Of a stretch of DNA of 64,000 nucleotides, positions 30,431 through 32,248 are shown one piece after another. Position 1 is the stretch's first letter, and every line of letters begins with the position of its first letter. The stretch is from Pedobacter indicus. GTDB lineage: Bacteria > Bacteroidota > Bacteroidia > Sphingobacteriales > Sphingobacteriaceae. Location of the stretch: assembly GCF_003449035.1 (NCBI RefSeq), contig NZ_QRGB01000001.1:62001-126000 (forward strand). The letters run 5' to 3'. The position numbers were made by a program, and so were the translations under genes. The notes under the pieces are model-generated. The model was not told the origin of the DNA. It searched no databases and was given only the letters and a program-made list of their open reading frames with translations.

Positions 30431-32248
30431 TTAATCAAAACCTAAATTAAATTCCTTTCTTAACTGATCGAGCATCGGATTTTTTGCCACCATTGCCTGG
30501 TATTTCTCCGCGTCGGTCACAGGCTTTCTTACAGTTGGCGACTTTTGGAGGACAGGAATAAGGTCGACCTTAAAGTTATTCAGATTTTGGCGGATATAAT
30601 TCAAAATTTCTATTTTCGACTCGACTAAAAGCTGCTGCTGGATCTGGTTCTCTACGATAACGTCTACCATATAGTTTTCCTTTAGTACCGGCTTATTAGC
30701 AGTCATCAGTGTGAAAAGGCTTATTTTGCCTTGATCCTTGATTGTTCGGGAAAACTCAGTCCAGAGTTTTAAAAATTCTTCTTGACCAAAAGGCTCTTCT
30801 GCCGTCCCTTGAACGTATTCGGGGTCTTTGTTCTTCGAGCCGCTATCTCTCTTTTCGTCAAAAACGGTATTGAGGTTTGGAATTTTGGAACCTAAGTTGA
30901 TATCGGTCAATTTAGGGATAACAAGCTTGGGTCTCGTTGGAGGCACCACCTCACTCTGTGGTGAAGGAGACACTGATGAATCTTTGTTTTCTGATGATGA
31001 CGCAACGCTTGATGGAGGTGCGACTGGGCTCTGCTTTGCCGTGGTAACCGGATTAGAAGTTTCAGTTTGATCAGGCGACTTCGTTATGGAAGTTTTTTTT
31101 TTAGCGGACTCGCCGCTTTCTTCGTTCATGATTGATTGCCTGCTAAGCTGGACAGCCGAACTGATATGACACATCTTCAATAGAGCCAGCTCTACCTGCA
31201 ATCGTTGATTTCTGCTGGTTTTATAATTTATTTCACATTGATTAGCAATGTTCAATGCCGACAACAGTAGGCCCTGACTAGTTTTTTCAGCCTGGCTAAG
31301 GTACCGATCTTTGATGGTCTTACTTACCTCTAGAAGTTTCACAGTTTCCATATCTTTCGCGACCAAGAGATTCCGGAAATGACTGGCCAACCCAGCTATA
31401 AAGTGACTACCGTCAAACCCTTTTGAAAGAACTTCATTGAACAATAACAGGCACCTTGAGCTATCCTCATCAACAATCGCCTGTGTCAATTTAAAATAGT
31501 AATCATAATCTAATACGTTCAGATTGTCAATAACAGCCTGATAGCTTAAATTCTTATTAGAAAAGCTTACCAGTTGATCAAACATGGACAATGCGTCACG
31601 TAAACCGCCATCGGCTTTTTGTGCAATTAGATGAAGGCCATCCTGATCATAACTCACAGCCTCTTTTTGCGCAATACTTTCGAGATGACCAGCAATATCC
31701 TCAACGCGGATTCGATTAAAATCGAATATCTGACAACGAGAAAGAATAGTAGGGAGAATTTTATGTTTTTCGGTGGTAGCTAAAATAAACTTCGCATACG
31801 CAGGAGGTTCTTCCAATGTCTTTAAAAATGCATTGAAAGCCTGAGCAGATAGCATATGAACCTCATCAATGATATAAATCTTATATCTTCCGGTCTGAGG
31901 AGGAATCCGCACCTGTTCAATCAAGCTCCTGATATCTTCCACAGAATTGTTCGATGCGGCATCTAACTCATGAACATTAAAAGAGGAACCATTTTGAAAA
32001 GCTTTGCAACTATCACAGGTACCACAAGCTTCGACCTCGGAGGTTAGATTTTCACAATTTATTGTTTTAGCCAGGATACGAGCACAAGTGGTCTTTCCTA
32101 CACCTCTCGGACCACAAAACAGGAAGGCTTGTGCCAACTGATTATTCTTGATCGCGTTCTTTAAGGTTCCGGTTATGTGTTGTTGCCCAACAACGGTTTC
32201 AAAGGTTGCCGGACGGTATTTCCGCGCTGAAACAATAAAACTATCCAT
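30431..32248 (-). CDS. dnaX: DNA polymerase III subunits tau/gamma
   Basis: Clamp-loader ATPase that loads the sliding clamp and couples the replicative polymerases. The 605-residue tau protein shows Walker A (GPRGVGKTTCARIL), four zinc Cys (CENLTSEVEACGTCDSC), Walker B (YIIDEVHML) and the SRC motif (LSRCQIFDF). A Ser/Pro/Thr-rich linker starts about residue 375, followed by the tau C-terminal region. At Lys383-385 the gene contains a run of ten A (31093-31102, minus strand) directly after a small hairpin. A one-base slip either way meets a stop within 8 codons, giving a gamma-like protein of about 387-392 residues. Confidence 0.96.
   Translation of the reverse strand: MDSFIVSARKYRPATFETVVGQQHITGTLKNAIKNNQLAQAFLFCGPRGVGKTTCARILAKTINCENLTSEVEACGTCDSCKAFQNGSSFNVHELDAASNNSVEDIRSLIEQVRIPPQTGRYKIYIIDEVHMLSAQAFNAFLKTLEEPPAYAKFILATTEKHKILPTILSRCQIFDFNRIRVEDIAGHLESIAQKEAVSYDQDGLHLIAQKADGGLRDALSMFDQLVSFSNKNLSYQAVIDNLNVLDYDYYFKLTQAIVDEDSSRCLLLFNEVLSKGFDGSHFIAGLASHFRNLLVAKDMETVKLLEVSKTIKDRYLSQAEKTSQGLLLSALNIANQCEINYKTSRNQRLQVELALLKMCHISSAVQLSRQSIMNEESGESAKKKTSITKSPDQTETSNPVTTAKQSPVAPPSSVASSSENKDSSVSPSPQSEVVPPTRPKLVIPKLTDINLGSKIPNLNTVFDEKRDSGSKNKDPEYVQGTAEEPFGQEEFLKLWTEFSRTIKDQGKISLFTLMTANKPVLKENYMVDVIVENQIQQQLLVESKIEILNYIRQNLNNFKVDLIPVLQKSPTVRKPVTDAEKYQAMVAKNPMLDQLRKEFNLGFD
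31093..31117 (-). promoter_or_regulatory. Candidate slippage site in dnaX: hairpin plus A10
   Basis: On the minus strand, stem AGCGG / CCGCT with loop CGAGT (31117 down to 31103) is followed at once by ten A (31102-31093). In frame this reads Ala-Lys-Lys-Lys-Thr. With one extra A the frame reads Lys-Lys-Lys-Asn-Phe-His-Asn-Glu-Val-Ala-stop. With one A fewer it reads Lys-Lys-Lys-Leu-Pro-stop. Thermus thermophilus dnaX is known to use transcriptional slippage on an A run to make gamma. Confidence 0.6.

Follow-up and report, generated by a model that had tools for sequence, protein, structure and literature searches.

How could a single dnaX gene supply both the long tau protein and a shorter, gamma-like clamp-loader protein in Pedobacter indicus? 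The question is raised by a run of ten A's that directly follows a hairpin in the dnaX gene carried by the window, i.e. the whole stretch of 64,000 nucleotides that was analysed. Profile matches identify the gene product as a gamma/tau protein (NCBIfam NF011531, E 2e-250; TIGR02397, E 1e-132), and the features on which the argument turns are the following.

30434..32248, minus strand: dnaX, tau product, 605 aa, ATG at 32248
31151..31525, minus strand: Pfam DNA_pol3_gamma3 (domain III), end of the clamp-loader part, residues 242-366
31103..31117, minus strand: hairpin AGCGG(cgagt)CCGCT in the sequence, 5 bp, abutting the A10 run
31093..31102, minus strand: A10 run, candidate slippage site, coding Lys383-385 and the first base of Thr386
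31084..31086, minus strand: TAA in the sequence, the stop reached when the transcript has one A fewer (...KKK-LP)
31071..31073, minus strand: TGA in the sequence, the stop reached when the transcript has one extra A or the ribosome slips by -1 (...KKK-NFHNEVA, 392 aa)

A candidate slippage site behind the clamp-loader part

Along the minus strand AGCGG-CGAGT-CCGCT (31117-31103) is followed by ten A (31102-31093) and then by CTTCCATAACGAAGTCGCCTGA, and the gene reads GCT AAA AAA AAA ACT at the run, which consists of exactly ten A's. This reading bears out a preliminary description of the locus, in which the hairpin AGCGG/CCGCT was said to run at once into ten A's coding for Lys383-385. The predicted consequences of a change in run length hold as well, as one extra A leads through N-F-H-N-E-V-A to the TGA at 31071-31073 and one A fewer through L-P to the TAA at 31084-31086. 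The site was also correctly placed just after the clamp-loader part, with Pfam domain III ending at residue 366, 17 residues from the start of the A10 run. Two further pairings are present around the site, a small ACTTC/GAAGT stem immediately on the 3' side of the run (31078-31093, minus strand) and an outer pairing CAGGC/GCCUG that encloses the whole element in the window (90 nt, z -2.1).

We put the probability at roughly 0.8 that the A10 run is a programmed transcriptional slippage site through which one gene yields tau and a gamma-like product. RNA polymerase copying the T10 template would gain or lose A's, creating an mRNA pool in all three frames. Correctly framed mRNA would be translated into full-length tau, and shifted mRNA would run into a stop a few codons on, yielding a gamma-like clamp-loader protein of ~387-392 aa that ends just after domain III. 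The run would fill the RNA-DNA hybrid while the nascent hairpin directly 5' of it would fold inside the RNA exit channel, where it probably raises slippage, a geometry that would correspond to an intrinsic terminator with A replacing U. Slippage in vivo and its level, the existence of two proteins and the action of the hairpin are what we infer for this locus.

Conservation of the run and of the frames around it

How unusual is such a run? In the whole genome (3.47 Mb, both strands, overlapping matches merged) there are 57 A9, ten A10 including the one in dnaX, and one A11. The ten other runs of at least ten A's include four within sense frames of more than 150 codons, two of these before the first Met, and in total three genes, dnaX among them, contain an internal A10.

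For the comparison with relatives, dnaX loci were taken from 80 contigs with record titles, from a sample of the phylum (296 genomes searched, part of the matches fetched), from the window's family (101 genomes, one dnaX from each) and from the order of genome G239, which is Bacteroidales by inference (294 genomes searched, 70 loci fetched, 69 counted). Loci were considered distinct if they were not identical over ~1000 bases from the match start, and 333 were scored after removal of duplicates. Left out were L178 and L240, which come from the same genomes as L093 and L100, L321, which carries A10 as well and is identical, over the 1000 bases compared, to L008 (Pedobacter puniceum), L002-L005, which are other genes, and L203-L211, which are background stretches of the P. 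indicus genome itself.

A run of at least nine A's is found at the dnaX linker in 246 of the 333 distinct loci (A9 30, A10 195, A11 17, A12 3, A13 1), which makes A10 the preferred length at dnaX, given that A9 is far more frequent genome-wide (57 vs 10 A10 and one A11). Within the window's own family, one genome of which matches the Pedobacter puniceum locus L008 across the 1000 bases examined, A9-A11 is kept in all 100 distinct loci; the run is thus conserved at the nucleotide level in related Sphingobacteriaceae, as had been anticipated, and no run broken by AAG was seen among these 100. Elsewhere the run is present in 65 of the 80 titled contigs, in 56 of the 60 loci of the phylum sample from the same class or family (seven of which also belong to the window-family set), in 11 of 31 from other classes and in 21 of 69 from the Bacteroidales-like order, where the phylum and order figures are not unbiased rates, as the fetched rows are biased to best matches and short frames. 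It is absent in 87 of the 333 loci (48/69 in the Bacteroidales-like order, 20/31 in other classes, 15/80 titled, 4/60 in the class sample), indicating that gamma made by slippage would be dispensable in some lineages. Moreover, the run starts in all three codon phases (phases 0, 1 and 2 in 45, 88 and 113 of the 246 run-bearing loci), and therefore it is the A-run itself that is kept and not one fixed peptide.

The frames around the run point in the same direction. In 89.6% of 135 loci with tau in frame both shifted frames close within 8 codons, as compared to 19.0% at control positions in the same genes, and the median number of codons to the stop in these loci is 1 in the frame of one extra A, 5 in the frame of one A fewer and 10 at control positions (counts of stop codons, as those of Lys codons given below, cover 190 of 277 rows, without the family loci that were added last). 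Tau is in frame in 188 of the 246 run-bearing loci, needs one extra A in 53 and one A fewer in three; the remaining two are near a contig end and without a long frame after the run. There are thus 56 loci in which gamma is in frame and tau would be reached via a slip of either sign. In all 50 of the extra-A genes examined the zero frame closes within 6 codons, and the third frame does so within 15 codons in 49 of them and after 61 in the remaining one.

Such frame switches appear to have occurred repeatedly. A FastTree tree of 225 thinned rows gives 26 switches of arrangement among run-bearing rows and 21 gains or losses of the run, a rough count since frame-switched rows were thinned less than others. 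Close pairs differ in run length, as L175 with A11 vs L008, L325, L326 and L331 with A10 and the same stem, or L093 and L174 with A9 vs neighbours such as L313 and L116 with A10. Single frame-switch cases could be assembly errors. In one genus (g9 of family f4), the open frames are no longer than 362-378 aa in 17 of 17 sampled genomes, and A10 with tau at one extra A is present in six of the six loci fetched, a uniformity that argues against sequencing error. Free switching of the frame is to be expected if transcripts are already present in all frames.

The hairpin and the weighing of other explanations

Does the hairpin contribute to the proposed slippage? Hairpins whose 3' end lies 0-4 nt ahead of the run were given a score, the sum of their pair weights, and tested against a null of synonymous shuffles in which the peptide is unchanged and the codons are those of the gene itself, in two thinned sets, 62 of 106 loci from the family together with the titled loci L007-L012 and 102 of the 140 others. 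Scores of at least 13 were reached by 22 of 62 loci in the family set and by 24 of 102 in the other set (6.5 expected in each), with p<=.05 in 14 of 62 and 20 of 102 loci, respectively; an earlier thinned set, superseded by these two, had 18 of 84 loci at p<=.05, in the same direction. In 17 control comparisons at positions 5' or 3' of the run no excess of loci at p<=.05 was found (lowest binomial p 0.2), albeit Wilcoxon p values of 0.011-0.048 occurred in 4 of the 17, and at control position -240 strong hairpins in the family set numbered 8 of 62 vs 3.6 expected. The 3' end of the hairpin peaks 0 to -5 nt from the run, and structure 3' of the run is without group-wide excess (both in 169 loci, counted before the last family loci were added).

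The stem sequences are highly varied (ACATCATCG/CGATGATGT, CCGCTTCGGT/GCTGAAGCGG, GCTGCTTC/GAAGCAGC, TCTCTGC/GCAGAGA). Between the window and its sole sampled congener, AGCGG/CCGCT vs AATCT/AGATT, four of five pairs differ and all are complementary. An eight-pair stem recurs in 13 of the 32 loci whose run lies at residues 350-358, and in one of these (L153) T-A takes the place of a C-G pair while Asp becomes Asn. For its composition the window's own hairpin is ordinary (-5.8 kcal/mol, z -0.9 vs dinucleotide shuffles), and a strong hairpin is missing in 40 of 62 family-set loci and 78 of 102 other thinned loci; for these reasons the hairpin is to be regarded as a frequent putative aid and not as a constant part of the site. 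The preliminary suggestion that the hairpin helps the slip is upheld for the group. A stem-loop directly 5' of the putative slippage motif is present in the window, and in the group hairpins of unrelated sequence are in position-specific excess over synonymous shuffles; the window's hairpin is ordinary when taken alone, and its support comes from the relatives.

Could the run simply belong to a Lys-rich linker in an AT-rich genome and have no function? Linkers often contain Lys-Lys, and in 162 of 190 run-bearing genes AAA is not the minority codon for Lys outside the run. Even in the 28 of 190 genes in which AAA is the minority Lys codon elsewhere the run consists of A's throughout, however, and a functionless run would leave its occurrence in three codon phases, its preferred length, the closed shifted frames and the frame-switched relatives without explanation, which makes this reading highly improbable. 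A more serious alternative is -1 ribosomal frameshifting of the E. coli type, in which ribosomes slip on an A_AAA_AAA heptamer within the run to yield gamma. Such a heptamer exists in every codon phase of A10, the slip would lead to the same protein as a transcript with one extra A, and it is in the extra-A frame that the stop is nearer (median 1 vs 5 codons). Shine-Dalgarno (SD)-like 4-mers are found in the last 8 nt before the run in 25% of 123 thinned loci vs 1-6% in windows ending at least 8 nt away. These letters lie mostly in the last 8-12 nt, however, touching or nearly touching the run, when an SD sequence that acts in -1 shifts is 9-14 nt from the shift site (PMC5009743). This objection would be weaker if the ribosome shifted at the far end of the run, and the enrichment may partly speak for a ribosomal role or be a by-product of G-rich 3' arms of the hairpins. 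Further points against the ribosome are that an excess of 3' structure is lacking across the group, though the window itself has its small ACTTC/GAAGT stem, that the other shifted frame is closed as well, that tau lies at one A fewer in three loci, and that ten A's are kept though seven would suffice. An Rfam search of the window's stretch gave three weak matches, none to a dnaX-related family. Ribosomal frameshifting is therefore held to be unlikely as the source of gamma, and RNA-polymerase slippage with a nascent hairpin most likely fits the pattern better.

If slippage is real, it might still owe nothing to the 5' hairpin, with A10 alone being enough. Many relatives have no good hairpin, and nine A's slip in Thermus (PMC1088944). 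The position-specific excess over synonymous shuffles in two separate sets argues against an irrelevant hairpin, leaving this explanation a possible one to which we give about one chance in three.

Relatives without the run

What do lineages use that have no run? In the Bacteroidales-like order 59 genomes of one family (f51, centre G500) were searched, and many of its dnaX genes have no A-run and a zero frame that ends at the gamma position. In all 42 loci examined (41 distinct, L360 being equal to L060 over the stretch compared; L060, L257, L266, L351-L378, L408-L413, L421-L425) the motif AGGCAA[TC]C[AG][CT][AG][AG]G occurs in zero-frame phase just before, or overlapping, the zero-frame stop, which follows 3-10 codons after AGG, and in all 42 the tau half stays open in the +1 frame over 180-299 codons (seven cut at the stretch end). 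Among 20 thinned members of the first 31 loci the letters of AGGCAATCACGGGAG are 70-100% fixed, flanking positions mostly 30-70%, save a G at -3 and two others. The exact 15-letter motif occurs 28 times in 27 of the 59 genomes, always beside dnaX as judged from coordinates, and one genome has dnaX on two contigs; the reversed motif, used as control, had no match in the 59 genomes. An ATG in the +1 frame near the stop is not kept (within 10 codons in one of 42 loci), and a separate tau gene is therefore unlikely. In two further members, L418 and L419, A10 is present and tau is in frame, while five (L414-L417, L420) have neither run nor early stop. In the simplest reading the motif is probably a +1 ribosomal signal and took the place of the slippage site. 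The +1 site of yeast Ty1, described in part in PMC5009743, contains AGG_C. The AGG followed by C in the f51 motif recalls this site. Rfam searches of seven loci of the f51 type gave nothing related to dnaX. A stretch common to the f51 motif and the window, where it lies 5' of the hairpin (AGGCAATCA), was considered and is taken as chance, since AGGCAATC is in no other run-bearing locus in that stretch.

Other arrangements were observed in passing. L059 and L063 have an in-frame TAG at the gamma position within the conserved CCATAGATTGCNAGGTCGCCNCAGGCG (L059:2785-2820, L063:3596-3630); they have in common CCA-TAG-ATT-GCN-AGG-TCG-CCN-CAG-GCG, and the tau half is in frame after the TAG. Readthrough or bypass at this codon is possible, as judged from these two sequences; the stretch was not found in 393 genomes of the order. 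Seven loci without an A-run (L033, L041, L051, L071, L075, L100, L107) have, by eye, a short GGGC-loop-GCCC-like hairpin in the corresponding position, near residues 365-372. The frame of L075 ends at the contig end in what we take to be a Nextera adapter, and because of this its early end is probably an artefact.

Taken further, RNA polymerase might set the gamma/tau switch of the replicase in much of Bacteroidota, by means of a hairpin in the exit channel together with A10. The frame of the tau half would then be nearly neutral, genes would change back and forth between slipping for gamma and slipping for tau, and one Bacteroidales-like family, in which A10 survives in some members, would have swapped the site for an unrelated translational +1 signal; we consider the odds of this wider picture to be even. 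Should it hold, a subunit of the replicase is produced by programmed slippage of RNA polymerase in large groups of Bacteroidota, and many dnaX genes that one would otherwise class as frameshifted are intact. Furthermore, hairpin and run vary naturally among the relatives, a series with which one could test how slippage is driven by a hairpin in the nascent RNA, and the question why bacteria keep gamma becomes testable, given that the run has been lost in some lineages and seems to have been replaced in one.

Comparison with known systems

The closest parallel is dnaX of Thermus thermophilus, in which transcriptional slippage on nine A's leads to a gamma:tau ratio of ~1:1 (PMC5009743, PMC1088944). 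As there, the P. indicus gene has tau in one frame, an A-run on the sense strand and near stops in both other frames, and gamma, which ends after the run in Thermus, is predicted to do likewise. Unlike the A9 of Thermus, the candidate run is A10, lies right after domain III and is abutted by a hairpin in many relatives. E. coli dnaX likewise makes tau and gamma from one gene with an A-rich shift site; in contrast, the P. indicus gene has no A_AAA_AAG (A10 is followed by C), and the group has no general signal of a 3' stem-loop and has SD-like letters that mostly lie closer to the run than 9-14 nt.

A GeneTack survey (Antonov 2013) reported 17 two-ORF dnaX genes, nine of them with A10, and proposed slippage (PMC3711429). 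These genes, which may include Bacteroidota, match the 56 relatives with gamma in frame; all 17 need a shift for tau, whereas tau is in frame in the window, and the passages of that paper on dnaX mention neither a 5' hairpin nor conservation across codon phases. In Blochmannia, slippage was proposed to correct indels in a poly-A tract of dnaX (PMC3017870), the same idea of a frame-breaking homopolymer indel as in the frame-switched relatives, albeit the tract is located downstream of the gamma site, in the tau-only part, and in an insect symbiont. For the hairpin the precedent is a Roseiflexus IS element, in which a 5' nascent RNA stem-loop stimulates slippage on T5C5, the stem being needed and one C lost (PMC5009743). 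The inverted repeat directly 5' of the slippage motif and the terminator-like geometry are alike, and the differences are the A10 run and the housekeeping gene. In the open-access papers searched, in the parts consulted, no account of this dnaX site in Bacteroidota was found. The kind of site is thus already known, from Thermus dnaX and from the A10 dnaX genes predicted in 2013, and it is the hairpin, the wide spread, the repeated frame switching and the phase-independent conservation that look new.
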